Shown here in pieces: positions 14,109 through 30,690 of a stretch of 64,000 nucleotides of DNA (the first letter of the stretch is position 1; each line of letters starts with the position of its first letter). Location: assembly GCF_000688455.1 (NCBI RefSeq), contig NZ_JIAL01000001.1:1457001-1521000 (forward strand). Reading direction: 5' to 3'. The position numbers and the translations under genes are program-made. A model generated the notes under the pieces. The model had not been told where the DNA came from. It saw nothing but the letters and a program-made list of their open reading frames with translations, and did not search any database. The stretch comes from Pseudacidobacterium ailaaui. Its GTDB lineage: Bacteria > Acidobacteriota > Terriglobia > Terriglobales > Acidobacteriaceae.

Positions 14109-14190
14109 GCGGCCCTGAAAAGGCCCCTTGTCGGCGGTTCGATCCCGTCCCTGGCCACCACCTGCACCCCATCCCAAAGACCTCCATCCC
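14109..14190 (+). repeat. Truncated tRNA-Phe copy and flank (left island repeat)
   Basis: This copy repeats the anticodon arm, T arm, acceptor 3' strand and CCA of tRNA-Phe plus 30 bp of downstream sequence, but lacks the 5' acceptor and D arm, so it cannot fold into a tRNA. From 14121 to 14190 it matches 30571-30640 at 67 of 70 positions. It ends 28 bp before the 3' end of the histidine kinase gene. It is the likely left boundary (attL-like) of the island. Confidence 0.85.
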
Positions 14191-14218
14191 CGAGAGCACT
14201 GTTTAGAAAATCAGGATC

Positions 14219-15688
14219 TTACCTGTGAATCAGAGTCAGGGAGCGAGAAACTTCGATATTCGCTTTACTTCCACGAGGCCAGGAAATGGATAGCGACGCT
14301 CCTCCCTTGGGGCGGTTTGACGCCGTCACACTCCCACCATGCGCGCGCACTACGGCTTCAACAAAGGCAAGGCCAAGACCATGTCCTTTCGAGCCTCTTC
14401 CTTTTACCCGCTGCTCGAATATATGGCGGCTGATCTCTGCAGAAAATCCGGGCCCGTCATCTTCGACAATCAGTGTTGCAAGATCTTCGTTTGCGCTGAG
14501 TGTGATAAAGACGGTGCATGATGCTGGCAAATGATTTAGTTCATTATCCAGAAGATTGGCAATTACACGATGGAGAAGCGCCGCATCTGCCAATACCATA
14601 ACAGGACCCGCACTGCGAAGATTGACCCTAAGCCCTTTTTCTGACATCGATGGCTCATACAGATCGATCATGACTCTCATCAGTTCATCAAGATCGACTT
14701 CTGTCAGAGACAGTCTCAGCGCATCGGCCTTTGCTTCAGCTACGTCGAGAGAAACATTCAGGTATTCCGTCAATCGATCCAATTCATCTATGGCCGAAAC
14801 AAGGGGCTCGCTTTGCCCGGCCTTAAAGTCTCCACACAACGCTATCTCCAGCTTTCCACGAATCGCAGTTAATGGGCTGCGAAGGTCATGAGCTAGAGCC
14901 CCAGTAATGGTATGCAGTTGATGCATCGAACTTTCAATTCGATCCAGCATGTGGTTGAGCGTCTGGGCAAGATGCCCTATTTCATCGTTTCGCTTGCTGG
15001 TCGGGACTCTGCGGCTCAAATCAGATTGCCCAATTTGGGATGCAGCCTCGGTTATCTTGCGAACAAGGCCCAGCATACGTTTAGTAACAAAAAACACAAT
15101 GGCTGAATCGAACAGAACAATCAGTAACCAGAGACAGAAAAATCGCAAGCGGAGATTCCTCAGTACACGCAATTCATCTCGCTCGGAAAGTCCGAGATAA
15201 ATGCGACTCCCATCATCGAGTTGCACTGATGCGATTCGAAATGGAGAATCGAAACCTTTGACATGCAGGTCGTATGGAACTTCAGAAATGAACTTGCGCT
15301 CACGAATCGCTGCAAGATTTGCCAATCCATCCCCAGAGCCTACCCATAGCTTCAAAGCGCCGTCATTCCCGACTTGTAGAAAAAAAACGGAGTCGTTCTC
15401 ATTGCTGTTCGAACGAAGCTTATAGGAAACCTCTCTGCTCGCAAGTTCTGCAACTTCGCCTACTACTCTGCTGTAGAGGCGATCCTTGGGCGTTCGCCCA
15501 GCCACATCACGGAGAACGGCAACTTCTCCCGTAAGCCATGCATCGCTTCTACTCTGAATATCATTCGCTATGAAGCGATGAAGCATAACAAAGATGAGCA
15601 TGGTTCCCACTGCAAACGCAACCGTTCCCCAAAGAGAAATGTGCCATGCGGCGCTCCGCATAAGAGGATTAGCGGTCTTTGAGTACAT
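14219..15688 (-). CDS. Membrane sensor histidine kinase of an OmpR-type two-component system
   Basis: The 489-residue kinase has two membrane spans (about residues 15-40 and 182-203) enclosing a periplasmic sensor region of some 140 residues. A HAMP domain (about 203-255) follows, then the HisKA phosphoacceptor His267 in ALAHDLRSPLTAIRGKLE, and an ATPase domain with NDELNHLP (N box), VEDDGPGFS (G1) and GHGLGLAFVEAVV (G2). I chose the ATG with a GAGG site; it overlaps the response regulator end by 20 nt. A second ATG 8 bp after the regulator stop codon has no ribosome binding site. The pair is divergent from the type III polyketide synthase gene and may control it. The stimulus is unknown. Base composition is lower in GC than in the flanks. 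Confidence 0.92.
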   Translation of the reverse strand: MYSKTANPLMRSAAWHISLWGTVAFAVGTMLIFVMLHRFIANDIQSRSDAWLTGEVAVLRDVAGRTPKDRLYSRVVGEVAELASREVSYKLRSNSNENDSVFFLQVGNDGALKLWVGSGDGLANLAAIRERKFISEVPYDLHVKGFDSPFRIASVQLDDGSRIYLGLSERDELRVLRNLRLRFFCLWLLIVLFDSAIVFFVTKRMLGLVRKITEAASQIGQSDLSRRVPTSKRNDEIGHLAQTLNHMLDRIESSMHQLHTITGALAHDLRSPLTAIRGKLEIALCGDFKAGQSEPLVSAIDELDRLTEYLNVSLDVAEAKADALRLSLTEVDLDELMRVMIDLYEPSMSEKGLRVNLRSAGPVMVLADAALLHRVIANLLDNELNHLPASCTVFITLSANEDLATLIVEDDGPGFSAEISRHIFEQRVKGRGSKGHGLGLAFVEAVVRAHGGSVTASNRPKGGASLSISWPRGSKANIEVSRSLTLIHR

Positions 15689-16346
15689 ATCCAATACCTC
15701 GTACGGTTCGGATGAGCGGTTCGCGGCCTTCTGTATCCACTTTGCCGCGCAAACGGTAGATATGCACATCAACAACGTTGGTGTTTGGCTGGAATCGCAT
15801 TCCCCATACTTCGGAGAGCAGCATCGAGCGAGTGATGACACGACCCGCATGTCTACATAAATAAGCCAGAAGCACAAACTCCTGCGGGGTTAGATTTAGG
15901 ACCTCTCCCCCGCGAGAAGCCCTACGATTGATGAAATCCAGTTCCAGATCCAGTACCCGGAGACGAGCTGCTTCTTCAATGGGAGCCGCATTGCGCCGCA
16001 AGAGATTGCGCAGTCTGGCCAACAATTCTGCCAGTGCAAAAGGCTTTGTCAGGTAGTCGTCTCCGCCTTGCTCCAGACCTTTGACTCTGTCATCCACTGA
16101 TCTTCTGGCTGACAGTATTAATACTGGACTACGGATGCCGGATTGTCGGAGTTGGAGAATCAGATCAATGCCATCCTGATCCGGAAGTCCCAAATCAACA
16201 ATGAGTCCGTCGTAGGCCTGCCTGGATGCCAACTGAGTTGCGGCACTCCCATTTTCTGCTGTATCTACTTCGTAGCCGGCCTCAACCAAAGATTGCTTGA
16301 CAAAACTTGAAATCTCCGGTTCGTCCTCAACCAGTAGAAGTCGCAT
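15669..16346 (-). CDS. OmpR-family response regulator
   Basis: The 225-residue protein has a receiver domain with the acidic pair in LLVEDEPEI, phosphoacceptor Asp51 in VDLGLPD, and Lys101 in YLTKPFA. A winged-helix DNA-binding domain follows, with LTPQEFVLLAYL and VDVHIYRLRGKVD and the C-terminal IRTVRGIGYVL hairpin. It is the first gene of a two-gene operon with the histidine kinase. Its start lies about 410 bp from the polyketide synthase start on the opposite strand, and this shared region is the natural place for its binding site. Closest in layout to the QseB/CzcR/PmrA group, but the signal cannot be told. Confidence 0.93.
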   Translation of the reverse strand: MRLLLVEDEPEISSFVKQSLVEAGYEVDTAENGSAATQLASRQAYDGLIVDLGLPDQDGIDLILQLRQSGIRSPVLILSARRSVDDRVKGLEQGGDDYLTKPFALAELLARLRNLLRRNAAPIEEAARLRVLDLELDFINRRASRGGEVLNLTPQEFVLLAYLCRHAGRVITRSMLLSEVWGMRFQPNTNVVDVHIYRLRGKVDTEGREPLIRTVRGIGYVLKDR

Positions 16347-16754
16347 GATTCATGTTAAGCCATTTGATCCGCAATTCTCTTGCCTCGGAAGCCCTGAGGA
16401 TCACGATTTGTTCATCATGCTTCACAGCATGATGGATCACCCCAAAAAACCGCCAATGCACAGGAGAGTCGAATCATGACTTCAGCCGCAAGATACGCAG
16501 GATAATAGATTTCTCAGGCCCGTACTTTCAATCATTTCTTCTTCCATGAACAAATCGTAATCCTATCCTCCCCCCTACAAGTGCTACCGAATGATCAATC
16601 TGCTCGTCTCATGGAGCAGCCATACTATGACAAAATATGAAGATTGTTCTCTCAAGCGTCGCCTGTCCAGCATCATCGTCGCTTCGTGGTTCGGCTTCTC
16701 CGGGTACAGAAAGGGTATGGAATGCCGGAAATTTGGGCTGGAGGTCGATTACCT
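16347..16754. other. Divergent intergenic region, response regulator / polyketide synthase
   Basis: No gene is supported here; the open frame that runs from 16644 into the synthase lacks a ribosome binding site and family resemblance before the ATG at 16755. The region holds a perfect inverted repeat, CATCATGC and GCATGATG, at 16413-16420 and 16427-16434, flanked on both sides by GATCAC. It could be an operator or a small hairpin. The promoters of both the two-component operon and the synthase operon must be here, but I cannot place them confidently. Confidence 0.5.
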
Positions 16755-17816
16755 ATGACGACAGCGTATCTGAATCGCATTGCCACTGCCGTACCAGAAC
16801 ACGATATACATGACGCCTTCGTCGTCTTTGCAGAAAAGATGCTTGGCGATCAACGATTGCGTACGATCTTCCGACGCATGGCAAGCCGCGCCAATATTGC
16901 GCATCGCTACTCCTTCTTTGAGCCTCAGGAAGGATATGAAAAGTTCTTTTCACATGAAGTCAATGAGTCGTATCAACTTGGCAATCTGCCTAGTACCGCG
17001 CGGCGTATGGAGATTTTCGAGAAGAGCGCCCCTGTGCTCATGAAGATGGCCGTGGACCGTCTTGCGCTCAATGCACAGGAGCGAGCCGGCATAACACATG
17101 TCCTGGTGACCTGCTGCACCGGACTCTATGCTCCGGGGCTGGACTTTGAGATTGTCGATCATCTGGGGCTTTCCACAGACGTTGAACGAACCATGATCGG
17201 CTTCATGGGTTGCTATGCAGCGATCAATGCATTGAAGCTGGCACGGCATATCATACGTTCAGATCCTGAGGCCGGCGTTCTGATGCTCAATCTGGAGTTG
17301 TGCTCCCTGCATTTACAGGAGACACAGGAACTGGAGCAGGTGCTCTCCTTTCTGATCTTTGCCGATGGTGCGGCGGCGAGCCTGATAACTGCGCGTAATC
17401 AGGGCTTTGCTTTAGATAGCTTCAAAACAATCACCATACCTGGTACAAGGGGGTTAATTACATGGAAGATTCGTGGTCTCGGCTTTGACATGCTGCTCTC
17501 AGGACAAGTGCCAAGAGAATTAGGAAACGCGCTGCCTCAGAGCGGATTGATGGCCGAACGAGACGACATCCACCTGTGGGCAGTACATCCCGGCGGACGT
17601 TCTATTCTGGACGCCGTAGAGAAAGGATTAGAACTTCCTGCCGATGCGTTGAAGGCATCACGCGAAGTGTTGGCTTCCTTTGGCAATATGTCTTCAGCAA
17701 CCATAATGTTTGTGTTACAGCGGATCATGCAGCAGGCGCGCCCTGGACAGCGTGGATGTGCGATGTCCTTTGGTCCGGGCCTGACTGCGGAAACGATGCG
17801 CTTCCATGCAGTCTAG
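16755..17816 (+). CDS. Type III polyketide synthase (chalcone/alkylresorcinol synthase family)
   Basis: The 353-residue enzyme has the full catalytic triad: Cys121 in VTCCTGLYAPGLD, His278 in WAVHPGGRSILD and Asn311 in FGNMSSATIM. GFMGCYAAINAL and FADGAAA are further family landmarks. Type III synthases extend a CoA-linked starter with malonyl-CoA and cyclise it to resorcinols, pyrones or related aromatics. A GGAGGT site precedes the ATG by 10 nt. The methyltransferase start overlaps its stop, so the two are translationally coupled. With a methyltransferase and an FAD oxidoreductase nearby, the set resembles Streptomyces srsABC, which makes methylated phenolic lipids; the product here is inferred, not known. 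Confidence 0.93.
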   Translation: MTTAYLNRIATAVPEHDIHDAFVVFAEKMLGDQRLRTIFRRMASRANIAHRYSFFEPQEGYEKFFSHEVNESYQLGNLPSTARRMEIFEKSAPVLMKMAVDRLALNAQERAGITHVLVTCCTGLYAPGLDFEIVDHLGLSTDVERTMIGFMGCYAAINALKLARHIIRSDPEAGVLMLNLELCSLHLQETQELEQVLSFLIFADGAAASLITARNQGFALDSFKTITIPGTRGLITWKIRGLGFDMLLSGQVPRELGNALPQSGLMAERDDIHLWAVHPGGRSILDAVEKGLELPADALKASREVLASFGNMSSATIMFVLQRIMQQARPGQRGCAMSFGPGLTAETMRFHAV

Positions 17817-18603
17817 TGCCAAAATCCATCTGCGTACTCAGACCCTTCTTCTCCAAGCATTGCGTTGGATGACCGGCTTGCCATCGGAGGCCAGGCTTGA
17901 TTTCAATCACCGGGTCTCTCCTCACCAGTTGCCGGAACTAATGGATGGCGATTGTAGCTATGAAGATTTTTGTGATTGTCTGCGCAGCCTGGAGCAGGTG
18001 AATCGCTGGCTGTTAGGTTATCGACCAACATTGGCCTGGCTGAAGCGGCTGTCCCATGGATTGCCTCACCCCATACACATCGTCGACGTCGGTTGTGGCG
18101 GCGGCGATCTGCTGCGGAAGATTGCAGACTGGGCAGCGAAGGAAGGCGTTGCTGTCCAGCTTACTGGCATGGATCTGAATCCTTATTCTGCGCGAGTAGC
18201 AGCGGACTCCACTCCACAGAAATCTGGTATTACCTGGGTGACCGGCGATGCGCTGGCCTATCGGCCAGACAAGCCTGTCGATGTCATCGTGAGTTCACTG
18301 ATGGCACATCATCTGGAAGACAGCGATATCGTTTTGCTGCTGCGATGGATGGAAGCGACGGCGCGACTAGGCTGGTTTATCAATGATCTGGAGCGGTCTG
18401 AGCATGCCTGTTTGATGTTCGCATGCATAGCGAAAGTGGTGAGATGGCATCCATTTGTGCGGCACGATGGGCCGGTATCTTTTAGGCGGGCCTTTCGAAA
18501 AGAGGATTGGATACATCTGCTGGCTGCGGCGGATGTACCTCAGGAGGCAATCACGATAGAACATTGGCGCCCGGGACGACTGTGTGTAGGGCGATGGAAA
18601 TAA
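17806..18603 (+). CDS. Class I SAM-dependent methyltransferase of the polyketide operon
   Basis: The 265-residue protein shows motif I VDVGCGGGDLLRKIA, the acidic motif II loop in LTGMDLNPYSARVA, and motif III in WVTGDALAYRP, the order of a Rossmann-type methyltransferase. The start codon overlaps the synthase stop by 11 nt. Methyltransferases at this position act on the ring or hydroxyl of the phenolic product made by the type III synthase in characterised clusters; that role is inferred here from position. No membrane span is present. Confidence 0.9.
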   Translation: MQSSAKIHLRTQTLLLQALRWMTGLPSEARLDFNHRVSPHQLPELMDGDCSYEDFCDCLRSLEQVNRWLLGYRPTLAWLKRLSHGLPHPIHIVDVGCGGGDLLRKIADWAAKEGVAVQLTGMDLNPYSARVAADSTPQKSGITWVTGDALAYRPDKPVDVIVSSLMAHHLEDSDIVLLLRWMEATARLGWFINDLERSEHACLMFACIAKVVRWHPFVRHDGPVSFRRAFRKEDWIHLLAAADVPQEAITIEHWRPGRLCVGRWK

Positions 18604-18706
18604 GGCTGATGGCTATACAGCGTCTGGTCTGTGCAGCAAGTGCCACCCAGCGCCTTCGCCCTTTTGGGACGCACCCCCTCATCTCAAATTCTCTGAGAGG
18701 CAAATC

Positions 18707-19372
18707 ATGTCGACTTCTGCGCTAAGAGCACCCACCTCTTCCCGTTCCCGATTCAAGATGATTCTCTGGATTTCGCTTGGCCTTACTGTACTCTTTGTCT
18801 TCATTACCTCAGAGCTGCTACTCATCACCGACTATCCGATGTACCACGCCTACCGTTTACAGTTGATCGCCGACCGCGGTTTTCTCATTCCTCATACTAT
18901 TGCTGGAATTCTTGCTCTTTTCATCGGCCCCATTAATTTCTCTTCGCGTATCCGAGAACGCCATACCCGACTGCACCGCGTCCTTGGCTGTATCTATACG
19001 ATTTCTGTCTTTGTCGGCTCTTATACTGGGATTGCCCTCGCGGCTGGCAGGCCGGGGCTTCCCGGAACATCCATGCAGGCCGCTGCATGGATGGTGTGTA
19101 CCACGGCAGCTTTTCTGGCCGCCCGCACTCGCCAGTTCACCATACACCGCCAATGGATGGCTCGCTCCTACGCCGTTACCTTTACCTTCATTTCCAGCCG
19201 CATACTGAATCTTTGGCCGGCCTACTGGAGACACCTTGGCGATGTCTTGTCCGCTGTTGGCGTGATCGCCTTCACACTTGCCTCGCTGCTAATCGTAGAT
19301 ATTGGTCTCGATTGGCGTGAACTTACCACCTGTCGTAACGAATCATCAGCCAATAGGTGTTACAAGAATTAA
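18707..19372 (+). CDS. DUF2306 multi-pass membrane protein
   Basis: The 221-residue protein has about six hydrophobic spans and the DUF2306 signature: a GILALFIGPINF span followed by RLHRVLGCIYT, and a later HRQWMARSYAVTF. Function of the family is unknown; the paired His-Arg motifs at membrane edges resemble haem- or quinone-associated membrane proteins, which is only suggestive. An AGAGG site precedes the ATG. It lies about 100 bp after the methyltransferase on the same strand and is probably co-transcribed. A membrane partner would fit a lipid product. Confidence 0.8.
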   Translation: MSTSALRAPTSSRSRFKMILWISLGLTVLFVFITSELLLITDYPMYHAYRLQLIADRGFLIPHTIAGILALFIGPINFSSRIRERHTRLHRVLGCIYTISVFVGSYTGIALAAGRPGLPGTSMQAAAWMVCTTAAFLAARTRQFTIHRQWMARSYAVTFTFISSRILNLWPAYWRHLGDVLSAVGVIAFTLASLLIVDIGLDWRELTTCRNESSANRCYKN

Positions 19373-19399
19373 CAGACAGACTTAGCCAGGGTCCCATTT

Positions 19400-20173
19400 C
19401 TAAAAGCTGGTCCCGACCAGGTCCGAGCTGATTACAGGTCCATAGCCACCGAGTTGTCCAACAATGACTGCCACCGCAGGCTCCTCTCCTTCCAGTACCC
19501 ACACCCTCACGTCTTTTGGCTGTAGACCAAGTAGCCGCGCTATCAGTCTCACAAATCCGTTTATTTCCGGATGAATGCGAAACACTGTCGCAGGCAGGCC
19601 CTGCCCATTCAGGTACACGGTCTGCTCATCCTCTGGTGAGATTTGGAGCTGAATCAACCTTCCACCTCCGACTGGTGCCAGCATCCATACACGAAACGGT
19701 GTCGTATGGGAAGGAACATTCAGCAGCAATGTCCCTACCATACCGTTCGCGATGTCTTTCGGAAAATTCATATGCTTACTCTCGACGTGTGTCTTGCCAT
19801 TCTTGTCCGTTGTGCGAATGATCACCATGCCGGTAGCAGCTTCTACTGTGAAATCAATGGGCCTTGTAAAGAACGGGCCTTCCTGGATGTGATGATTTCG
19901 CACCAATCGAAACGTACCCTGCTGCACATAGGTGGTCTCTTCATCATCGATCGAGCCATCAACAAAGCGATATGTCATGCGCATCGTCACCTCATCGCCT
20001 TGCACAACCTGCAAGAACTCCCCTCTGGCAATCGTTTTTCCATCCTCAGAGCGGGCCACCATGAATCTCTGCATGGGTCGTTGAATATGTCTCACTGGAA
20101 TCTGTTCAGCAATGGCCACCATACCGATCGTCATCGCCCCCAAAATGACGATCAGGAATTTGTTTCTCCTCAT
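19400..20173 (-). CDS. Exported protein of unknown function
   Basis: I do not recognise a family. The 257 residues start with a signal peptide (MRRNKFLIVILGAMTIGMVAIA) and continue as a mainly beta protein with alternating hydrophobic and charged residues. The segment with FTVEAATGMVIIRTTDKNGK and the closing GLQPKDVRVWVLEGEEPAVAVIVGQLGGYGP look like an exported beta-barrel or attachment domain such as those in DUF3108-like proteins. It lies opposite to its neighbours, between the DUF2306 gene and the FAD oxidoreductase, and its 3' end is 28 bp from the DUF2306 end. Confidence 0.75.
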   Translation of the reverse strand: MRRNKFLIVILGAMTIGMVAIAEQIPVRHIQRPMQRFMVARSEDGKTIARGEFLQVVQGDEVTMRMTYRFVDGSIDDEETTYVQQGTFRLVRNHHIQEGPFFTRPIDFTVEAATGMVIIRTTDKNGKTHVESKHMNFPKDIANGMVGTLLLNVPSHTTPFRVWMLAPVGGGRLIQLQISPEDEQTVYLNGQGLPATVFRIHPEINGFVRLIARLLGLQPKDVRVWVLEGEEPAVAVIVGQLGGYGPVISSDLVGTSF

Positions 20174-20218
20174 GAAACACCTCGGTCTAACACCTTAGAC
20201 GTCAAACGATTCCAGCTA

Positions 20219-20232
20219 TATTGGATTCAATA
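20219..20232. promoter_or_regulatory. Inverted repeat between divergent genes
   Basis: TATTG-GATT-CAATA is a perfect 5-bp inverted repeat in the 142-bp gap between the unknown exported protein and the FAD oxidoreductase. The surrounding sequence is AT-rich relative to the genes. It could be an operator for either gene. No regulator can be assigned. Confidence 0.35.
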
Positions 20233-20315
20233 TGACGATTTAGACAGAATGGCCCGCCAAGCTGTTTTTTTGCGCGTCTACTAGAAGGATGGACTACAGG
20301 TTCACGGAATTTCCA

Positions 20316-21449
20316 ATGACTAGGAGTGCCACTTTGCAAGAAGAAGTCCTCATCCTCGGTGGTGGAGTGGCAGGCTGCGCGGCTGCGATTGCGCTCGCTC
20401 AAAAAGGACGAAGCGTCACCCTCATCGAACGTGAGCGCACGCCGCGCCATAAGGTATGTGGGGAGTTTCTCAGTGGTGAGGCCCTCGAAGATCTGCATGC
20501 GCTCGGCATCGATGTCGTGTCACTTGGCGCCGTGCCGATCAATTACGTTCGCCTCGCAGCTGCACAGCGGGCCGCGGAAGCACCTTTGCCGTTTCCGGCC
20601 AAGTCGCTCACGCGCAAGGCGCTCGATAAAGCCCTCATCTCCAGGGCCATCGCCGTAGGAGTTCGAGTAGAGCTCGGTCGCAGCGTACAATCGCTCAACC
20701 GCACCGCAGCTAGTACATGGCAGGTAACTCTGGAGGATGGCTCTATACGTGAAGCTCCGACGGTCTTTCTCGCCACTGGCAAGCACGATCTCCGAGGTCA
20801 CGCGCGTCCTAAGGACCCTCATCGGTGGGTTGCCTTCAAAATGTATTACCGGCTGTCTCCTGCTCAGGCGGATGATCTGGGCGACGCCTCTGAGCTTACG
20901 CTTTACTCCGGAGGCTACGGTGGCATTCAGCCTGTGGAAGATGGCATCACAAATTTTTGCTGTGTGGTGCAACGGCGGTATTTTGAGCGTGCCGGTCTTC
21001 GCTGGGAGGGTCTGATTGCAAATATGCAGAAGGACTGCCCCCACCTGGCTATGCGTCTCGCCGGAGCGCAACCGTTGCTCGATAAGCCGATAGCCATCAC
21101 CCATATTCCGTATGGCTACCTCCGGCGCACAACTGAAGATAGCCTCTACTGCATTGGCGATCAGGCCGCCGTCATCCCATCGTTCACCGGCGATGGAATA
21201 TCCGTTGCACTGCATACCGCCCGGTGTGCTGCCGCAGCCTATCTGGCCAGAGAGTCTTCGTCGGTCTTTCAACCAAAACTCCGTTCGGCAATGCTACCCC
21301 AGATGCGACTTGCCCAGGCTGCCGCGAATGGCTTAAACAACGCCCTTGCGCGCGCTGTGCTTCCGTTCTTTCTTCGCGTCTGGCCGGGTGCAATGCAGGT
21401 AACAGCCAGGCTCACCCGCGTCACCCAACCAGCTGCGCTTGCACCTTAG
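20316..21449 (+). CDS. FAD-dependent oxidoreductase (geranylgeranyl-reductase / hydroxylase type)
   Basis: The 377-residue protein begins with the dinucleotide fold LILGGGVAGCAAAIALAQKG, then ERERTPRHKVCGEFLS, the pattern of geranylgeranyl-reductase-like and lipid-acting flavoproteins, and has the second FAD motif LYCIGDQAAVIPSFTGDGISVAL. A hydrophobic C-terminal segment suggests membrane association. The ATG at 20289 was rejected because AGAAGG touches it directly; the chosen one has GGA at 8 nt. In characterised phenolic-lipid clusters a flavoprotein hydroxylates the resorcinol to a quinone precursor. It may do that here, or reduce a prenyl chain. Confidence 0.85.
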   Translation: MTRSATLQEEVLILGGGVAGCAAAIALAQKGRSVTLIERERTPRHKVCGEFLSGEALEDLHALGIDVVSLGAVPINYVRLAAAQRAAEAPLPFPAKSLTRKALDKALISRAIAVGVRVELGRSVQSLNRTAASTWQVTLEDGSIREAPTVFLATGKHDLRGHARPKDPHRWVAFKMYYRLSPAQADDLGDASELTLYSGGYGGIQPVEDGITNFCCVVQRRYFERAGLRWEGLIANMQKDCPHLAMRLAGAQPLLDKPIAITHIPYGYLRRTTEDSLYCIGDQAAVIPSFTGDGISVALHTARCAAAAYLARESSSVFQPKLRSAMLPQMRLAQAAANGLNNALARAVLPFFLRVWPGAMQVTARLTRVTQPAALAP

Positions 21450-21500
21450 GCGTTCGCCAGTTGAACGGAAGCAGCAAAATCTGCTTAGGGGAGATAGGAA

Positions 21501-22064
21501 ATGAAACTCTTCACAGTCTTTATTCTCACGGTCATACTTGCTCCTGGGGCTCACGCCCAGCGTCAAAGCTTCACTGTTGATCCCGATGCAAGTCAGGTCA
21601 GCATCACGCTCAATACAACCCACGAAGTCGTCCATGGAATGTTTCATATTCAATCTGGCCTGGTTGAATTTGACCGCAGCAGTTCTACGATGTCCGGCTC
21701 AGTGATTGTACTGGCGAACTCTGGGAAGACAGGGAACAGCAGCCGCGACAAGAAGATGGACAAGGACATTCTCAAGGTGGACCAATACACGAAGATTTCT
21801 TTTGCTCCTACAACCTTTGCCGGGACGATCGCGCCTTCAGGTAACTCAACCATTCAGGTCAGGGGTGTATTTACCTTGCTCGGCAATCCTCACGACCTGA
21901 CGGTTCCCATGCAGATTCACATCGATGGCCCCAGGGCAACAGCAAGGGCGCAATTCACAATTCCTTATGTACAGTGGGGTCTCAGAAATCCGAGCTTCTT
22001 GTTCTGGAAAGCCGAGGATTACGTAGCGATTTCTCTGAATCTTGTCGGCAAGCTTTCCAACTAA
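21501..22064 (+). CDS. YceI-family periplasmic lipid-binding protein
   Basis: The 187-residue protein has a signal peptide ending AHAQ and the YceI fold: SFTVDPDASQVSITLN at the start, the KMDKDILKVDQYTKISF segment, and GVFTLLGNPHDLTVPMQIHI. Family members are extended lipocalin-like barrels that bind polyisoprenoids or other amphipathic lipids in the periplasm. It follows the FAD oxidoreductase by about 50 bp on the same strand, with a GGAGATAGGA-type ribosome binding site. In this setting it may carry or store the lipid product of the polyketide operon; that is an inference from position. Confidence 0.88.
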   Translation: MKLFTVFILTVILAPGAHAQRQSFTVDPDASQVSITLNTTHEVVHGMFHIQSGLVEFDRSSSTMSGSVIVLANSGKTGNSSRDKKMDKDILKVDQYTKISFAPTTFAGTIAPSGNSTIQVRGVFTLLGNPHDLTVPMQIHIDGPRATARAQFTIPYVQWGLRNPSFLFWKAEDYVAISLNLVGKLSN

Positions 22065-22213
22065 CAAATGGAGCACGCTGTTTCATCGCTATAACGGGCC
22101 TTTCCTTATCTGGAGGCTTTCCCAGACGGCAACACCCGCAAACACTTTCCTGGTCAACCCTCTTTTCTGCATCGAAATGCACATCGGAGCGAGGACAACG
22201 CTTTTCTGTATGT

Positions 22214-23182: not shown

Positions 23183-23345
23183 CTTTCTTTCCGCAAGCTT
23201 CCCCGCTGTGGCCCGCAGGTAGAATGTGATTCATTCCCTCTCTGATTGGCCGTCCTAAGAAAATCCATTGTCGCCATTCTTCAGTTTGCGACCCAGCCTG
23301 ACACGCATCCGGTCGAGTTGGTACTTACGTTTGCTATCTAGATGC

Positions 23346-23356
23346 CGACCAGTCGG
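23346..23356 (-). promoter_or_regulatory. Putative TetR-type operator, copy 1
   Basis: CGACCAGTCGG, here extended to CCGACCAGTCGG, a perfect 5-bp inverted repeat with a 2-bp centre. It lies in the gap between the alpha/beta hydrolase and the HD-domain gene. Read on the minus strand it is followed by TAGATA, a possible -10 box. The same 11-mer occurs at 25254, 27883 and 30249. Confidence 0.55.
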
Positions 23357-23472
23357 TAAAGTTACAGAAAAATCCCTCAAAGGGAGACCTCAACGCACAT
23401 GGCCGAAATTGCTGCTTTTCTGTCATGGCATGAAGTCACAGCCTCCGCTATCTTCATTCCTAAGAGGAAGAA

Positions 23473-24135
23473 ATGATGAGCACTCCTTCACCCTACAACT
23501 CTTCTATTGCTGGCGTTAGTATTCCGGACTCCCAGCTAGCGCACGAAATTACAGAGTTCATACGGGATTCGGAAACAGAGCTGCTTTTCCACCACTCCAG
23601 CCGCGTCTACTATTTCGCCGCCTTGGCCGGAAAGCAGCGCGGCCTGGCCTTCGATCCGGAATTGCTTTACGCCAGCGCCATGTTTCATGACCTCGGCCTG
23701 ATGCCGGACTACAGCAGTCCACAGGACCGCTTCGAAGTAGATGGAGCCAATGCCGCTCGCGACTTCCTGCAGGTGCGCGGAATCTCTCCAGAAGACCTCG
23801 GCATCGTGTGGACCGCCATCGCTTTGCATACCACACCTGGAATTCCGCAGTATATGCACCCCGTCATCGCGCTTGTCACCGCTGGCGTGGAAATGGATGT
23901 CCTCGGTCTCTCTTATGCGGAATACGAAGATGCGGTGCGCAATGCCATCGTCGCGCGTCATCCCAGGACCCCCCACTTCAAGGAGGACATCCTCCAGGCC
24001 TTCTACGATGGCATTCATCAAAAGCCAAAAACCACTTTTGGCAATGTCAAAGCCGATGTCCTCGCCGACAAAGACCCCGCCTTTCGACCCGGGAATTTCT
24101 GCCAAACCATCCGTAGTTCGCCCTGGGCCGGATAA
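23473..24135 (+). CDS. HD-domain hydrolase, cyanamide-hydratase-like
   Basis: The 220-residue protein has the metal-binding pattern of the HD family: LLFHHSSRVYYFA around residues 38-49, then MFHDLGL with His72-Asp73, and later conserved His in ALHTTPGIP. The LFHHSSRVY opening is typical of the subgroup that includes fungal and yeast cyanamide hydratases (Ddi2/3 type). No membrane span or signal is seen. A GAGGAAG site precedes the ATG. A GlxA-type regulator gene follows after 46 bp on the same strand and is probably in the same operon. Isonitriles, cyanamide or similar small toxic compounds are plausible substrates, but not proven. Confidence 0.83.
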   Translation: MMSTPSPYNSSIAGVSIPDSQLAHEITEFIRDSETELLFHHSSRVYYFAALAGKQRGLAFDPELLYASAMFHDLGLMPDYSSPQDRFEVDGANAARDFLQVRGISPEDLGIVWTAIALHTTPGIPQYMHPVIALVTAGVEMDVLGLSYAEYEDAVRNAIVARHPRTPHFKEDILQAFYDGIHQKPKTTFGNVKADVLADKDPAFRPGNFCQTIRSSPWAG

Positions 24136-24181
24136 GCCCTCTTCACGACCCGTAGCAGCGCGCTCTTACAATAAGAGGCGT

Positions 24182-25123
24182 ATGCGCAGAGTCGTCATCA
24201 GCGGCCCTCCCCCTGTTCAGATTCTCGATGTAACCGGGCCGCTTGAGGTCTTTTCCTGTGCATCAGGCTATCAGGTACAGTTGGTCGCCTTTGACGACTC
24301 CGGCCATCTCCCCACCAGCCGTGGCTTCAGCCTCGCCGGGGCCATACCGCTTCAGCACATCTCCGGTCCCCTGGATACTCTTGTCATCGCAGGCGGTCCG
24401 GGCGCGGAAAATGGTCACTACGACGACACATATATCCGCTGGGTCGCGGCAATGGCGGCCCGTTCCCGACGCGTCGCTTCCATTTGCACCGGCGCTTTCG
24501 TCCTTGCAGCGGCCGGACTGCTCGACGGCAAAACTGCGGTCACTCACTGGAGCTTCTGCGATCGCTTTGCCCGCGAGTTTCCCAAAGTAAAGGTCCTCTC
24601 CGATCCCATTTTTCTTCGCGACGGGGCTGTCTATACCTCGGCCGGCATTACCTCAGGTATGGATCTCGCCCTCGCTCTGGTCGAAGAAGATCTTGGCCAT
24701 CAGACCGCTTTGTCCATTGCGCGCCAGCTTGTCATGTTTCTTGTGCGTCCCGGCGGACAGGCGCAGTTCAGCCACATGCTCTTGCGGCAGGCAACAACCT
24801 TCAAGCCTCTGCGTGAGCTTCAGGTTTATATGCTTGAAAACCTCAAAGCCGACTTGTCCGTCGAAGCGCTTGCCGCGCGTATCGGAATGAGTCCACGCCA
24901 CTTTTCCCGCGTCTGCTTGCGTGAGCTCAAGCTTAACCCCGGTCAGCTTGTGGACCATCTTCGCGTAGAGGCCGCCCAGCAGATGATCCATAGCTCTTCT
25001 CTCGGACTGAAAGAAATCGCTGATGTCTGCGGTTTCCGCTCACCCGATGTCATGCGGCGTGCTTTCCAGCGAGTGATCGGTATTACTGCTGCCGAGTATA
25101 GCGAAAGATTCACCCGCAGCTGA
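24182..25123 (+). CDS. GlxA-family regulator (DJ-1/PfpI domain plus AraC HTH)
   Basis: The 313-residue protein has a DJ-1/PfpI-like N-terminal domain with the conserved Cys102 in ASICTGAFVLAAAGLLDGK and the LVIAGGPGAE motif, then a C-terminal AraC-type double HTH (about residues 215-313; SVEALAARIGMSPRHFSRV and EIADVCGFRSPDVMRRAF). Such regulators sense small molecules through the catalytically silent DJ-1 domain. I started at the ATG with AGAGG 4 nt upstream; the longer open frame covers the HD gene. Location directly after the HD gene suggests that it controls that operon. Confidence 0.9.
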   Translation: MRRVVISGPPPVQILDVTGPLEVFSCASGYQVQLVAFDDSGHLPTSRGFSLAGAIPLQHISGPLDTLVIAGGPGAENGHYDDTYIRWVAAMAARSRRVASICTGAFVLAAAGLLDGKTAVTHWSFCDRFAREFPKVKVLSDPIFLRDGAVYTSAGITSGMDLALALVEEDLGHQTALSIARQLVMFLVRPGGQAQFSHMLLRQATTFKPLRELQVYMLENLKADLSVEALAARIGMSPRHFSRVCLRELKLNPGQLVDHLRVEAAQQMIHSSSLGLKEIADVCGFRSPDVMRRAFQRVIGITAAEYSERFTRS

Positions 25124-25208
25124 CGTTGTTTCCACTCCGCTCATGGCTCCGAATACACCTGCCCCCTTCCTAGAGCCTGTTTCCCTGCTCCTGCTCCGAA
25201 CACGCGCG

Positions 25209-25856
25209 TCAGGCAGATGTCAACATAGCCGTCGGAGCAGCTCCCGCGCTTAACCGACTGGTCGTACTTTTTATGGAAAGTTTTTTCTGTATCATATGTC
25301 GTGCCCGGTGCAGTCTCACCTTTACCGCCACCCGGGAAATGCGCAGCGCCCGCGCCGACTCATCGATCGTAAAATCATGGACTGCTCGCAACAAAAACAC
25401 CTGCTGATACTTCAAAGGAAGACTCCGAATCGCTGTCCCCACTACCCTCAGCAGTTGTTGCTGTTCAAGATGTCTTGCCGGATCATATTTTGCGCCTGCC
25501 AGCAACGCCATAGGCGCCCCATCCGATGCCAGCTCGTCAATCGAATCCGATGGCATTCGCTTCGTTTTCCGCAGCCTCATCCGTGCTTCATTCAGAACAA
25601 TGCTCAGCAGCCACGTGCCAAAGCTGGACTACATGCGAAACAGGCTGAGATTGCGAAAGGCCTTGATGCATGCCTCCTGCACCGCATCTTCTGCATCTGC
25701 ATCATTCCGCAGCACAGAAAATGCCATCCTGTAGGCCGCCCGTTCATAAGGAACCATCAGTTCCTGAAAGCGTTCCTTTTCGCCACTCTGGATTGCGGCA
25801 ATCAGATGGGCTTCGTTCCTCAGAATGCTTTCCTTCGTTTCTGCTGTCTGCTTCAT
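25209..25856 (-). pseudogene. ECF sigma factor interrupted by an in-frame amber codon
   Basis: Two halves lie in the same frame. The first has the region 2 sequence FQELMVPYERAAYRMAFSVLRNDADAEDAVQEACIKAF split by TAG right after LFRM. The second continues SSFGTWLLSIVLNEARMRLRK with linker and region 4 (IRSLPLKYQQVFLLRAVHDFTIDESARAL). The stop at 25629-25631 falls where intact family members read F-x-x-x-x-F-x-TWL, so a single base change (for example CAG to TAG) explains it. AGAGGA precedes the ATG. Unless the stop is suppressed or a sequencing error, no functional sigma factor is made. No anti-sigma gene is adjacent. The C-terminal tail contains one copy of the CGACCAGTCGG motif. Confidence 0.8.
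25254..25264 (+). promoter_or_regulatory. Copy of the TetR-type motif inside the sigma-factor remnant
   Basis: CCGACTGGTCG is the exact reverse complement of CGACCAGTCGG. It lies in the 3' end of the broken sigma factor gene and not near a start codon, so it may be a chance copy, a decoy, or a leftover from rearrangement. Confidence 0.3.
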
Positions 25857-26106
25857 TCTTCGTTCCTCTTCTTCTGTCCGAGGGCTTCAATCATTCGTGG
25901 AATGCTGGGCTTCTTGCCCATGCGTCCGCTCTGGATTTTGCTCTCATTTGGCCGTAACTCCTTTTCGGGTTTGCCCGGATTGCGCCGCACCTGCCTTCAT
26001 ACACCGCCATGCGACAAAACATGTATGATTGCTGCGTCCTGCGCAATCATCGCAATCCTGTGGCAGACAAAATTTACAAAGCTCATATGTTTCAACGTCG
26101 CTCTTC
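25857..26106. other. Gene-free stretch between sigma remnant and catalase terminator
   Basis: About 250 bp with no supported gene. The sigma-factor promoter should lie at the left end on the minus strand. A word ACATGTATGATTGC with AT-rich flanks at about 26019 is the only part that stands out. Short open frames on the plus strand have no family resemblance. Confidence 0.4.
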
Positions 26107-26157
26107 TAAAAAAAGGATGACCAGCAGGGGAGCAGAGAAAAAATCTGCCGGCCATCC
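26107..26157 (-). terminator. Rho-independent terminator of the catalase gene
   Basis: On the minus strand a 13-bp stem (GGATGGCCGGCAG with CTGCTGGTCATCC, two G-U pairs) is followed by seven T residues. It starts about 50 bp after the catalase stop codon. Confidence 0.8.
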
Positions 26158-26209
26158 TCAGGAAAACTGCGCCGTCACGCAGGTCTTCCCATCAGGCAAA
26201 ATGGGAAGC

Positions 26210-27667
26210 TTAAACTTCAGGGGTTACCTGAATGCCCAAAGCACGCGCGACGCCCTCTCCATAAGCAGGGTCGGCCTTCAAACAGTTCCTGATATGGCGA
26301 AGCATGACCTCTTCAGAGGCTCCGCTTATCGCGCGGGCCGTGTTTTCAAACAACGTCTGCTGCTGGGCCGGTGTCATCTTACGGAACAGATTGCCCGGCT
26401 GCTCATAGTGGTCATCGTCCGCATAATGATCCCATCTGTCTGCATCTCCATGCAGTTCCAGTGCAGGCTCAGCATACTTCGGCTGGTTGTCCCATACACC
26501 TTGTGTGTTCGGGTTGTAGCTCACCGTTCCGCCCAGATTGCCATCCAACCGCATCGCGCCGTCCCGGTGATATGAGTGATGAAATGGACATCCTTTGGCA
26601 GAATTCACCGGTATCTGATTGAAATTCACGCCCAGCCGATAGCGCTGCGTGTCACCGTATGAGAACAACCGCGCCTGTAGCATCCGGTCCGGTGAGAACC
26701 CAATACCAGGCACAACATTTGCCGGTGAGAATGCCGCCTGCTCTACCTCTGCAAAATAATTTTCCGGATAGCGGTTCAGCTCCAGGACACCCACTTCCAC
26801 CAGCGGGTAATCTGCTTTGGGCCACACCTTCGTCAGATCGAATGGATTGTGCTTGTGCTGCCTGGCCTGCTCTTCGCTCATGACCTGAATAAAGAGCGTC
26901 CAGCGTGGAAAATTCCCCGTGTCAATCGCGCTGAGCAGGTCCCGCCCATGTGTCTCCCGGTCTTGCGCCACCAGTGCTGCCGCCTTGGCATCTGAGAGGT
27001 TCTCAATGCCCTGCTGTGTGCGAAAATGAAACTTGACCCACACTCGCTGGTTGTCCGCATTGATCATGGAGAACGTGTGGCTCCCGAATCCATGCATGTG
27101 GCGGAAGCTCTTCGGGATTCCCCGTTCCGACATCACAATCGTCACCTGATGAAGCGCCTCAGGAAGACTTGTCCAGAAGTCCCAGTTGTTCTGCGCACTG
27201 CGCAGTCCGGTCCTCGGATCACGCTTGATCGCATGGTTCAGATCTGGAAATCGCAGCGGGTCGCGAAAGAAGAAGACTGGCGTGTTGTTCCCTACAATGT
27301 CCCAGTTCCCCTCTTCGGTATAAAACTTGATCGCGAATCCGCGAATGTCCCGCTCCGCATCAGCCGCACCGCGCTCCCCTGCAACGCTTGAAAACCGCAC
27401 AAACAGAGGCGTCTGCTTTCCGATCTCCGAGAAAATCTTCGCCTTCGTATAGCGAGTAATGTCATGCGTCGTGGTGAATGTACCGTAAGCCCCCCATCCC
27501 TTTGCATGCATTCTCCGCTCTGGAATGACCTCGCGGTCAAAATGGGCCAGTTTTTCAATCAGCCATATGTCCTGCAAAAGTACGGGCCCGCGTGGACCCG
27601 CAGTGAGTGAGTTTGTATTATCGGCCACCGGCGCGCCGGTCGCATTCGTAAAGATTTTGTCTGCCAT
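26210..27667 (-). CDS. Monofunctional haem catalase (small-subunit, clade 3)
   Basis: The 485-residue enzyme has distal His in [14 protein letters not shown], the distal Asn in VGNNTPVFF, and the proximal haem ligand Tyr in [14 protein letters not shown]. Length fits clade 3 (KatA-like) enzymes, which lack the extra C-terminal domain of large catalases. It breaks down hydrogen peroxide in the cytosol. An AGAGGA site precedes the chosen ATG; the extended frame to 27769 lacks resemblance. A copy of the CGACCAGTCGG motif sits about 215 bp upstream inside a possible promoter, so control by the TetR protein of the island is plausible. A strong terminator follows. Confidence 0.95.
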
Positions 27668-28234
27668 CGTCGTCCTCTCAGGTTCGTTGTTTTGTTCTTT
27701 CAGTGACCGGCTACCCTGGTTCGCCTTTCGACTAGTCAAAATGCCCGTAGTTTTCCATCTGCGCACCATAACAGGAGATACAGGATCGAAGATAGCTCTG
27801 CCAGGGTCCCATCACCATGACAGAAAAACTGCATTTTCGGACAACTCGTTTCTAGCAGCAGCTGCTTTCCGATATGATGTTGCGACCAGTCGGAAGTTTC
27901 AATTTCGCTGATCTGCTCTTCCACGAAGGGGGCTATGCCGCTGTTGGCATTCAGGGAATCGTCGAACGGGCGGGCATTGCTCTTCCGTGCCGCCTCTCTG
28001 GCGAATTTTCTCTTCAACAGCTGGGAAGGTGCCCTGATTAGAATGCGCACCCCAAAAAAGCACCATCCCTTGGCTTGAATTTCAACAGTTCCTCTTCGGC
28101 AAGCTTCTGCTTTGGTCTCCGCAGCTCTTGCCGGATCAGGTCATCAGGATGCGCCAAAATCTCACCCCGGTGAGGATTCGTTGTAACCTCTCCGCCTGGG
28201 TCTAAATCAACTCCGTAGACGAGGAGGATCTCCC
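27668..28234. other. Intergenic region between catalase and cupin genes
   Basis: This 567-bp gap separates the divergent catalase and cupin genes. It contains the putative operator at 27883-27893. On the minus strand TTGAAA stands just before that operator and CATCAT/TCATAT after it, which would place the operator between -35 and -10. Open frames of up to about 100 codons exist on the minus strand but show no recognisable family and no ribosome binding site. Confidence 0.45.
27883..27893 (-). promoter_or_regulatory. Putative TetR-type operator, copy 2 (catalase side)
   Basis: CGACCAGTCGG lies between a TTGAAA word and a CATCAT word when read on the minus strand, 17 bp apart. That is the position of a repressor site overlapping a promoter spacer. 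The catalase start is about 215 bp downstream. Confidence 0.55.
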
Positions 28235-28633
28235 ATGTTCTTTCAGGCTCCGTCTATGCCACAAACGGACCATCAGGAAATCATCACCATGGTCTCCAGA
28301 GATACTACAACCGATGTAGGTGGGCCGGTCCGTTATCTCTCCACGCCTGCTCCTGAAGTGTCTTCCGTCATCCTCACCCTTCCCCCCGGAGGAAAAACCG
28401 ACTGGATGACCCACCCTGTGCCAGGCTACATCTACATTCTGGAAGGTGAGTTGACCGTAGAGTTTGAGGATGGCCACCGTCTTCACTACCATGCCGGACA
28501 GGCCTTCATGCAGGCCCACACCCAATGGCACCGCGGAATCAATGAAGGCAAAACGCAGATGCGTTTTCTCGCCGTCTTTTTTGGTGAAAAAGGCACTCCT
28601 GTTGTCCTTCATCCCCCAAAAACGTCGCATTAA
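28235..28633 (+). CDS. Small single-domain cupin protein
   Basis: The 132-residue protein is a cupin: motif 1 around THPVPGYIYILEGELTVEFEDG and motif 2 around GQAFMQAHTQWHRGINEG. The His residues that bind metal in this family are present in THPVPGY, MQAHTQWH. A GAGGAGG site lies 8 nt before the ATG. Small cupins of this type often act as dioxygenases, isomerases or quercetinase-like enzymes; the reaction cannot be told. It converges with the TetR gene, with a shared hairpin between the two. Confidence 0.82.
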   Translation: MFFQAPSMPQTDHQEIITMVSRDTTTDVGGPVRYLSTPAPEVSSVILTLPPGGKTDWMTHPVPGYIYILEGELTVEFEDGHRLHYHAGQAFMQAHTQWHRGINEGKTQMRFLAVFFGEKGTPVVLHPPKTSH

Positions 28634-28668
28634 AAGCACTGTCTCTTCTTCCGTCCAGTCGGTTTTTT

Positions 28669-28697
28669 GTACCAGGTGTCTTTCTCTTTCCTGGTAC
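28669..28697. terminator. Bidirectional hairpin between convergent cupin and TetR genes
   Basis: GTACCAGG and CCTGGTAC form a perfect 8-bp stem with a 13-nt loop. A run of six T precedes the stem on the plus strand and an A-rich end follows, so it can terminate minus-strand transcription. A near-copy of the operator motif (CGTCCAGTCGG, one mismatch) lies directly beside it at 28652-28662. Confidence 0.55.
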
Positions 28698-28723
28698 ATT
28701 TCTCCGGCTGGCCCCATAATGCC

Positions 28724-29314
28724 TTAACACCTTTTTATGCTGATCGAATTCAGATATAGCTGAAGATGCCGCCCCGCCGTTTGCAGACATCCTGCCTTTT
28801 TATCCAGGCGGTCTAGCGCCATCGCCCCCTCCAGCAGCGAGATCATCACGGCTGCCACTTCCTTGGGAACAATTTCAGGCTTAACTTCCTTCCGGCGCTG
28901 GCCTTCTTCCAACGTTCCCTCGATCAGCATCCTCCACTGCTTTAGCGCCTCTTTCGCGGCTTTTTTTAGTGCTGCATTGCCATCGTCGCTATCGGTAATG
29001 GTGTTCAGCAGCGGGCATCCGCCAGGAAAAGCAGGAAGGGAGACAACGTTCTCCAAATGGACCCTGAGTTTCGCAATAGCATCGGTTGCCGTGTCCATCC
29101 CAGCCATCCGGGCCTTGCTTGTTTCACTCCAGGCATGTTCAAAAGCGGCCACCGCCAGCTCTTCTTTTGTGGCGAAATGGCCGTATAGGCTGCCCTTCTC
29201 CAACCCAACCGCTTCTACAATGTCCTGCATCGAGCAGCCTTCATAGCCCTTCCGGTTAAAAAGCGGGGCCGCCTTCGCAATGATTCGTTTCCGGGTTTCT
29301 GCGCCTTTGCTCAT
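28724..29314 (-). CDS. TetR-family transcriptional regulator
   Basis: The 196-residue protein has the N-terminal TetR HTH (ETRKRIIAKAAPLFNRKGY ... SMQDIVEAVGLEKGSLYGHFATKEEL) and a C-terminal ligand domain with the GGCPLLNTITDSDDGN motif that marks the LmrA/YxaF-like group. The start was set at MSKGAETR; the upstream extension has no resemblance. Repressors of this group control detoxification or efflux genes. Four copies of an 11-bp palindromic motif lie within 5.4 kb of it, three of them upstream of genes, which makes it the natural candidate for the protein that binds them. The downstream neighbour on its strand side is the SDR remnant 140 bp upstream of its start. Confidence 0.9.
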   Translation of the reverse strand: MSKGAETRKRIIAKAAPLFNRKGYEGCSMQDIVEAVGLEKGSLYGHFATKEELAVAAFEHAWSETSKARMAGMDTATDAIAKLRVHLENVVSLPAFPGGCPLLNTITDSDDGNAALKKAAKEALKQWRMLIEGTLEEGQRRKEVKPEIVPKEVAAVMISLLEGAMALDRLDKKAGCLQTAGRHLQLYLNSISIKRC

Positions 29315-29453
29315 ATCGGTCTCAACTCGTCTGACTCTTTTAGTTTCACATGACGCAGTATTCCATATGGCTTCTGGTTCTCCAGGTTGCGCTCTCGATG
29401 CTGCACAGATATGGCGTTTCGTCTCCCTTTCCGCGCAGCACCATGCGCTATCC

Positions 29454-30200
29454 CTACCAGGGCAGTTCCTGTCCGTTGTGTACGAACTTGCCGCTCGGAC
29501 CATCCGGTCCCAGCAAAGCATACACCACACTGGTCTTGGCGCCCTCTGCCACTTCCAATTGGGCGTACTGTGTGCCAAGCTCTGTCTTTACCCAACCAGG
29601 GTGTACCGAGTTCACCTTGATCTTCGTGTCCTTCATCTCGGCGGCAAGGTGCACCGTAAACTGGTTCAGCGCGGTCTTCGATGCGTTATAAGCAAATGCC
29701 TTCATCGGCGCAAATGGGGCTGTTCGGCATCGCTTGCAGGGTAAGCGAACCAAGAATGCTCGACAGATTTACAATCCGGCCTGCCGGACTCTTCTCCAGC
29801 AGAGGCAGAAACTCTCTCGTCACCGCAACTACCGAGAAGAGATTGGTCTGGAACACCCTCTGTGCAGCTCTTCCTCACTCGTCGTGATCGTGTGCGCGTT
29901 CAGCAAGCCTCCATCCCCGCCCATTCCCGCGTTGTTAATCAGAATATCGAGCTTCCCAAACTTATCGGTAACATAGGCCGCCGCTGCTTTGCGGTCCGCC
30001 TCCTTGTTCACGTCAAGGACAACCGGATAGGCCTCGATCCCCTCCGCCTTGAGCGTTTCCGCGGCTTCCTCCGCAGACGGTAGGTTCCTTGCACCCACCA
30101 CAACTGTGACGTTCTTCTGCCCAAGCTGACGTGCTGTCTCCAGTCCTATTCCACGATTGACACCCGTAATGCGCGCTACCTTTCTATCCTTCGACATCAT
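29454..30200 (-). pseudogene. Short-chain dehydrogenase/reductase with two frameshifts
   Basis: The first part starts MSKDRKVARITGVNRGIGLE with the NAD(P)-binding TGxxxGIG motif and LDILINNAGMGG. Near 29852 two extra bases shift the frame, so the first frame ends in SSR. In the next frame the protein goes on with VFQTNLFSVVAVTREFLPLL and NLSSILGSLTLQAM. One extra T near 29715 then restores the original frame with APMKAFAYNASKTALNQFTVH, which holds the catalytic YNASK, and the normal C-terminus SGKFVHNGQELPW. All SDR motifs are thus present but the reading frame is broken twice. An operator motif lies 49 bp upstream of the start. Confidence 0.8.
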
Positions 30201-30558
30201 GTCCCTCCTGCTTATTCGATTGGGTTTTGTTTCCTGAGTTTAATAAAACGACCAGTCGGATGTTTGGAAGGTTATACTTTTGCACACTTCCCTGTGGTGG
30301 AGCGAAAGAAATTGCTTAAAGAAGAAGCCTTGTTGTTCTGCTCCGGCTTTCGTTGCGAAGATACAATCATGGGTGAGTGGAACAAAGAAGAACTCGTAGT
30401 CCAGTCCCTGAAATGCGCGCGCCCTCCCAAAGCAATCCGCTCCCATCGTCACCGCTCTTCTTGCCTACCATGAGAACAACGGCTTTTTCAGCAAATAGGA
30501 AGATGTTTGACCGGGATCAGGCTTGGTCCGTCTCGCAGGTTGTGCGTACCGGCGTGGG
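30201..30558. other. Gene-free stretch at the right end of the island
   Basis: About 360 bp with the operator copy at 30249-30259. Open frames of about 70 codons exist on both strands (30264-30473 plus, 30240-30452 minus), and neither has a family resemblance or convincing ribosome binding site. This may be degraded sequence next to the island boundary. Confidence 0.4.
30249..30259 (-). promoter_or_regulatory. Putative TetR-type operator, copy 3 (SDR side)
   Basis: CGACCAGTCGG lies 49 bp upstream of the SDR start. On the minus strand it is followed at once by TTTTATTAAAC, an AT-rich -10-like element, so a protein bound here would block the promoter. Confidence 0.55.
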
Positions 30559-30650
30559 GCGCGGTCCCAAAGGCCCCTCGTCGGCGGTTCGGTCCCGTCC
30601 CTGGCCACCACCTGCACCCCATCCCAAAGACCCCCATCCCTGGCCGCGCC
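30559..30650 (+). repeat. tRNA-Phe 3'-end copy (right island repeat)
   Basis: The segment 30571-30640 matches 14121-14190 at 67 of 70 positions, including the T arm, the acceptor 3' strand, CCA and the CACCCCATCCC flank. Further right it matches the flank of the intact tRNA copy (TGGCCGCGC then GTGTC) rather than the left repeat. The anticodon arm is degraded. It lies about 40 bp before the LysR gene and is the likely right boundary of the island. Confidence 0.85.
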
Positions 30651-30690
30651 GTGTCCGCTCATGTACGCTCATTTAGACTACTGACACCCG

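Follow-up and report, generated by a model that had tools for sequence, protein, structure and literature searches.

Does a fragment of a tRNA gene that lies downstream of the gene itself, commonly taken as the footprint of an integrase, always mark an integrated element? The question is raised by a tRNA-Phe locus in Pseudacidobacterium ailaaui, where accessory genes lie between two partial copies of the tRNA gene. The stretch analysed (the window, 64,000 nt) covers positions 1457001-1521000 of a single-contig genome of 3,686,523 bp (3.69-Mb), here G000, the other G numbers denoting further genomes. An initial annotation had read the repeats as the integration footprint of a candidate genomic island whose integration module may have been lost. 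The accessory block at the tRNA is borne out by the present analysis; an ordinary integrase footprint is not, as the sequence common to the copies runs on past the CCA end and is of a type found in repeat arrays of the family Acidobacteriaceae, and it is from such an array that the tRNA fragment appears to come.

The tRNA-Phe (GAA) gene is intact at 13932-14006, as had been claimed, and is recognized by both ARAGORN and the Rfam model RF00005. Its 3' part recurs twice downstream on the same strand, as copy 2 (14108-14190), with an interval of only 154 bp, and as copy 3 (30560-30640), at a distance of 16.6 kb. The repeats, described at first as 70 bp long, are real (96% identity over 72 nt, 14119-14190 against 30569-30640), but they do not start at 14121 and 30571 as proposed, their homology beginning at the anticodon stem (14108/14109 and 30560/30561); similarly, two copies do bound 16.4 kb, but the intact tRNA carries the repeat as well, which makes three. 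There is no dispersed family, as a search of the whole genome with the repeat gave three strong places only, namely the tRNA and the two copies, with the next match at an expectation value (E) of 0.002, and a 30-mer of the repeat (up to three mismatches) occurs three times in the window and in 0 of 100 shuffles. Copies 2 and 3 have a variable region altered alike, CCCCTTG and CCCCTCG against CCGGCG in the tRNA, and a common trailer of about 30 nt beyond the CCA, through CATCCC.

The DNA between the tRNA and copy 2 has the composition of a repeat unit. From the one CCA to the other there are 154 nt, which contain a trailer, a stem-loop and a tRNA 3' half, and the spacer shows the stem of the array type, in which GCCGCG is paired to CGCGGC and encloses a smaller hairpin. 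Copy 2 is followed by its trailer to 14190 and then by unrelated DNA, the stem-loop being missing, whereas the tail behind copy 3 can be aligned with that behind the trailer of unit 1, 4 of 2000 shuffles scoring as well. For the tail of copy 2 there is no alignment with either of these (1743 and 1243 of 2000 shuffles reach the score), nor is there one between the left flanks of the two copies (1879 of 2000). Copy 2 completes an array unit, and copy 3 carries the same trailer and a probable stem-loop remnant, which would place the block inside the array; one complete unit is present in the window and the next copy is 16.4 kb off. From these alignments, the simplest order would be that the array came first and the block was inserted later. 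Removal of one repeat length and the block (16,450 bp) would reduce the locus to the tRNA followed by a single unit and then by trailer with a broken stem-loop, the arrangement seen in G295.

Arrays of this type trail the tRNA-Phe gene in some soil Acidobacteriaceae, with units that run through trailer, GC-rich stem-loop and tRNA 3' half (anticodon stem to CCA). A pattern search matched 20 of 398 family genomes while the backwards control pattern matched none; 18 of these, from 10 genera, were accepted, the hits in G011 and G159 being judged unrelated, and G008, whose spacing the pattern missed, was counted in to give 19 array genomes. Close copies lie 100-210 bp behind the tRNA in G000, G003 and G008, then in G071, G127, G082 and G107. 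Units are mostly 104-154 bp long; measured from CCA to CCA there are five of 116 in G151, three of 114 in G140 and three of 113 in G254, with 121, 116 and 119 in G071, 114 and 113 in G127, 104 in G295 and 154 in G000. The array of G151 is the largest, and nine of the 18 accepted genomes have a single unit; in G249 the second tRNA copy is without the acceptor end. Within G151, G140, G071 and G254 the units are almost the same, those of G279 and G300 vary more, and between genera they differ. The outer stem GCCGCG/CGCGGC has all six pairs in 17 of 18 units tested, which were taken from 17 accepted genomes (G249 excluded) and G008; pairs were counted by script because MAFFT misplaced G008 in alignment A1, and the script chose other sites in G082 and G421. 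Both sides of the stem have changed in G136 and in G008, a covariation that gives modest support because both strands are tRNA-derived. Several of the inner hairpins have GNA loops, which are very stable in DNA.

A piece of the spacer antisense to tRNA positions 19-33 was compared at 42 tRNA-Phe sites, one more being too short. The three sites with a long close copy have pieces of 11, 9 and 15 nt (3, 6 and 0 of 100 shuffles, respectively, have one as long), and among the other 39 a piece of 12 nt occurs in G018 (0 of 100) and one of 9 nt in G036 (6 of 100). The antisense piece is weak site by site, and it is the alignment across genera that carries it. With a limit of E = 5 for 13850-14300 and of E = 1 for four further stretches (L237, L209, L232 and L238), RF00005, the tRNA family, was the only Rfam match. 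A phylum-wide pattern matched 7 of 396 genomes, with arrays in G000, G107, G151 and G171 and hits in G011, G052 and G634 that look unrelated; absence elsewhere in the phylum is weak because the pattern was drawn from the Acidobacteriaceae tRNA. That the stem-loop might be dispersed over the genome was considered and rejected: in 544 kb of G000 the first of three patterns gave 7 hits (6 with the pattern reversed), the second 48 (32) and the third 5 (0), with no clear family across them, and the match at 14067 is the array itself. No description of such tRNA-Phe arrays was found in a limited search of open-licence papers. Separately, G008 has a 186-nt unit with an extra long hairpin (L156, L155) and a further copy near the end of another contig, followed by a putative transposase-like gene recognized by eye. 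Short copies of the tRNA-Phe acceptor end, 35-50 nt behind the tRNA in G035 (L050, about 22 nt) and G090 (L217, by eye), represent a third kind of close copy.

We tentatively favour, at somewhat below even chances, insertion of the block in the tRNA-Phe array by recombination between repeated unit sequence. The tRNA-Phe gene would head a short array of tRNA-Phe-derived units in which the 16.4-kb accessory mosaic sits between copies 2 and 3, having entered by recombination across some 80 bp of unit sequence (tRNA 3' half and trailer), most likely by general homologous recombination with a circle or a duplicated stretch of DNA bearing a unit, and with no part for an integrase acting at the tRNA. 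This is preferred because 30 nt beyond the CCA are common to the copies and because neither an integration module nor an arm was found. Several points weigh on the other side. No close relative was seen to have the array free of the block, and G001, the only genome of the same genus compared, is without an array and has a rearranged origin region. The mechanism leans on missing integrase signs, since general recombination leaves no specific mark, while sequence that looks arm-like by eye behind the last unit in G082 and G107 means that integrases may use array units. In the further 4.2-20 kb of eight arrays there is no extra tRNA-Phe copy past the last unit edge, and no match to six integrase queries; none of the eight shows a displaced unit, so a split array has no known parallel. 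Behind copy 3 the alignment of the stem-loop is short, the antisense piece alone is weak in G000, its length being reached by 3 of 100 shuffles, and the array claim for G000 rests on one complete unit and one displaced copy.

The principal competitor, which we regard as possible yet distinctly less probable, is a classical tRNA island, in which tRNA-Phe or one of the array units would have been the target of a tyrosine integrase that inserted an element, with copies 2 and 3 as attachment (att) sites and the integration module later deleted. The tRNA-Phe gene is indeed a used integrase target in this family. G006 and G027 have integrase open reading frames (ORFs) of 274 and 429 aa, respectively, immediately on its 3' side, there is a match of 411 residues in G096, and integrase fragments adjoin partial copies in G027, G034 and G006. 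A survey of 60 relatives and G000 itself placed partial 3' copies in at least eight of 37 family genomes (G000, G003, G006, G008, G015, G023, G027 and G034). Here and below, counts from genome searches are lower bounds and absences weak, because a limited number of places was scored per genome: 13 (60 relatives and G000) and eight for tRNA-Phe copies, eight for block DNA, two for flank genes, and one or two for the block among 398 genomes. The repeats of the window begin at the anticodon stem, as integrase-type copies do, but the flanks of the latter diverge immediately past the CCA, where the common sequence of the window continues for 30 nt. Most of the integrase-type fragments of relatives have an arm motif (for example TCAAnnACTTA) right behind the CCA, and an arm profile was built from 22 of 80 listed flanks, with such a motif shortly behind CCACCA. 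In a leave-one-out control this profile recovered 19 of its 22 own arms, two of them scoring below 1, and it has no match at 14101-14400, behind copy 2.

That no integrase is visible, as first reported, holds under closer search. PF00589, run in six frames through stop codons at E up to 10, has no match in the 64,000-nt window, while the same approach in G000 gave six matches above the cut-off, all outside it; tblastn with six integrases or integrase fragments of relatives gave a best E of 0.04 at 32.1 kb, outside the block, and neither method found an integrase gene or remnant inside the candidate island. Pfam named no mobility gene among 20 ORFs of the block and its flanks, and in PHROGs the kinase and the SDR were the sole matches among 10. 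An arm candidate at 14202, the only match (up to one mismatch) of a post-hoc pattern in 544 kb, was rejected, as the 22-flank profile, built free of the window, misses the site (no hit among its best 20 rows or in 14101-14400). An integrase beside the last array unit of G107 and of G082 was rejected as well, the ORF of the expected geometry in G107 being a glycosyltransferase and two ORFs in G082 matching TetR domains, one under the cut-off; the six integrase queries found nothing in the 20 kb (G107) and 9.3 kb (G082) of DNA there. Elsewhere in the order, in a different family, an integrase is found 5' of tRNA-Phe (G041:C75:37905-43349, L160; G042:C27, L161), and a copy of tRNA positions 1-37 some 5 kb further upstream in G041 indicates an element lying 5' of the tRNA.

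The accessory nature of the enclosed genes is supported by comparison with G001, whose DNA is about 76% identical to the window over 9756-14006, the last base of the tRNA, and unrelated from there on, with no array; over the 151.7 kb compared, the next stretch in common begins at 35480 (dnaN). A counterpart of the block was not found in G001, where a DNA search with 14200-34190 gave one 125-bp match, eight of 60 candidate places being scored. The repeats bound accessory DNA as proposed, but copy 3 is not a clear end to the accessory content: nothing beside the tRNA or the dnaN of G001 matches the interval 30.7-35.4 kb, whose genes match relatives elsewhere. Searched against the 398 family genomes (E <= 1e-40), 14200-34190 has a match in at least 155, in pieces, the longest matched stretch being the eight-gene cluster listed in Table 1, which occurs at other places in other genera. 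All eight genes are present in the same order at five of six family loci examined; at the sixth, in G407, two were not found and one is split in two pieces. ARAGORN found no tRNA genes in the 16-kb cluster stretches of these six relatives, and we note that this type III polyketide cluster, which includes a two-component system of its own, is conserved and that several family genomes have it collinear and at a distance from tRNA genes. The matches of the catalase in other genomes are separate from those of the HD/AraC pair. Beyond copy 3, the LysR and lipocalin genes form one stretch in G152 and G182 and are neighbours in G151 and G171, far from tRNA-Phe in the former and on another contig in the latter, and the OYE and HxlR genes are neighbours in G124. 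From these matches, the block is a mosaic of accessory genes and the accessory stretch extends beyond copy 3 towards dnaN. The empty site that the initial annotation had foreseen, with the glycosidase and LysR genes adjacent, was not seen, no LysR homologue (E <= 1e-8) lying behind tRNA-Phe in 18 relatives (about 7 kb upwards of DNA each); nor was the gene order of the block seen in relatives, with few places per genome scored.

Table 1. Features of the tRNA-Phe array and of the block between its copies (window coordinates).
Feature	Position	Strand	Evidence or remark
Intact tRNA-Phe (GAA), probable array head	13932..14006	+	ARAGORN, Rfam RF00005; DNA conservation with G001 stops here
Unit 1 trailer, C-rich, with additional 14-bp tandem repeat	14007..14064	+	
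GC-rich stem-loop with an outer stem that recurs in units of 17 other genomes, GCCGCG (antisense to tRNA part)/CGCGGC, inner hairpin GGCGC-GCA-GCGCC	14065..14114	+	
Copy 2, anticodon stem to CCA and 30-nt trailer; array apparently interrupted afterwards	14108..14190	+	
Accessory-gene block, presumably inserted; integrase not found	14191..30559	n/a	
Eight-gene cluster: histidine kinase, response regulator, type III polyketide synthase, methyltransferase, DUF2306, unknown, FAD oxidoreductase, YceI	14219..22064		Pfam
HD-domain protein and DJ-1/PfpI-AraC regulator	23473..25123	+	Homologous DNA in G151, G142, G164, G300
Catalase	26210..27769	-	PF00199; homologous DNA in G096, G238, G131, others
TetR regulator and SDR gene with premature in-frame stop	28724..30203	-	
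Copy 3, tRNA 3' part and trailer, probable further array unit	30560..30640	+	
Probable unit stem-loop remnant 3' of copy 3	30641..30686	+	Alignment to stretch behind unit 1 trailer

Composition adds little to the case for an island. The block is lower in GC than its outer flanks, as had been noted by eye (53.1% against 60.6% and 60.0%), but less so against the genome, where 20 samples of 16.4 kb have a mean of 56.75% (standard deviation 2.2); it lies about 1.7 standard deviations under this mean, and two of the 20 are as low or lower. Its tetranucleotide distance is inside the range of the same samples. The block is low in GC yet no outlier, and the flanks are high; foreign composition was rejected as island evidence, since two of 20 genome samples are equally low. 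Within the block the largest gap between gene models is 629 bp. Of the two broken genes suggested earlier, one is shown broken, namely the SDR gene, which has single-frame homology to a relative's protein over 30203-29457 while its ORF stops at 29829, indicating a premature stop. Pfam also names a hydrolase, and of the sigma-70 gene (25209-25580) region 4 alone is seen. A 29-nt inverted pair, 86% complementary (23400-23428/27815-27843), lies about 45 nt upstream of the gene starts of the HD protein and the catalase, and may be a common operator.

Downstream of the block, dnaN, parB, parA and gidB (35481-40725) and a change in GC skew near 36-37 kb mark a replication origin region, which is rearranged in relation to G001, dnaN lying 21.5 kb after the tRNA in G000 and 37-38 kb before it in G001. 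In G063 (L210) a putative dnaA-start-like sequence, recognized by eye, lies on the opposite strand, upstream of tRNA-Phe by some 600-700 nt. A chromosomal rearrangement near the origin that split the array and moved copy 3, with no insertion as such, would fit this strong rearrangement and the continuation of accessory DNA past copy 3 up to dnaN, but is improbable, as copy 3 is oriented like the array and bears what is missing behind copy 2, and insertion is the simpler account of same-strand units 16 kb apart.

More speculatively, and with little expectation that it will prove correct, the array unit itself might be a non-autonomous mobile element of about 115 bp, with the tRNA 3' half as attachment core and amplified in trans by tRNA-Phe integrases, or else a transcript processed to a CCA-ended tRNA minihelix; the array would then provide spare attachment sites beside an essential tRNA, one of which took the 16-kb block.

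The block is ordinary, and the array is the more interesting part of this locus. Since the same signature comes here from a repeat array, a fragment together with a tRNA can by itself mislead island callers, and the arrays, whose stem-loop is conserved and whose units are often almost identical within a genome, raise questions of transcription, of copy-number variation and of their use by integrases instead of the tRNA. Islander calls for a tRNA gene, a same-strand 3' fragment downstream at 2-200 kb and an integrase gene inside (PMC4383910). On this account the window resembles Islander-type islands in its tRNA with same-strand 3' fragment, the 16 kb between them and the accessory content, and the length range includes copy 3 (16.6 kb) and excludes copy 2 (154-bp); it differs in that no integrase was found, in that the fragment is an array unit and in that the trailer past the CCA is also common. 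The integrase-bearing tRNA-Phe elements of G006, G027 and G096 resemble the window in the tRNA used and in fragments that start from the anticodon stem/loop, whereas their arm motif shortly behind the CCA and their integrase facing the tRNA were not found in the window. In Escherichia coli, the tyrT distal repeats that encode rtT RNA are tandem repeats after a tRNA gene, with a period of 178 bp and about 19 nt of the tRNA, its 3'-end piece, in each. No Rfam family but tRNA matched the stretches tested here. The arrays of G071, G127, G140, G151, G254 and others have the same unit plan as that of the window, and in comparison with the eight followed over their next 4.2-20 kb, G000 is the only one seen with a long block between its units.

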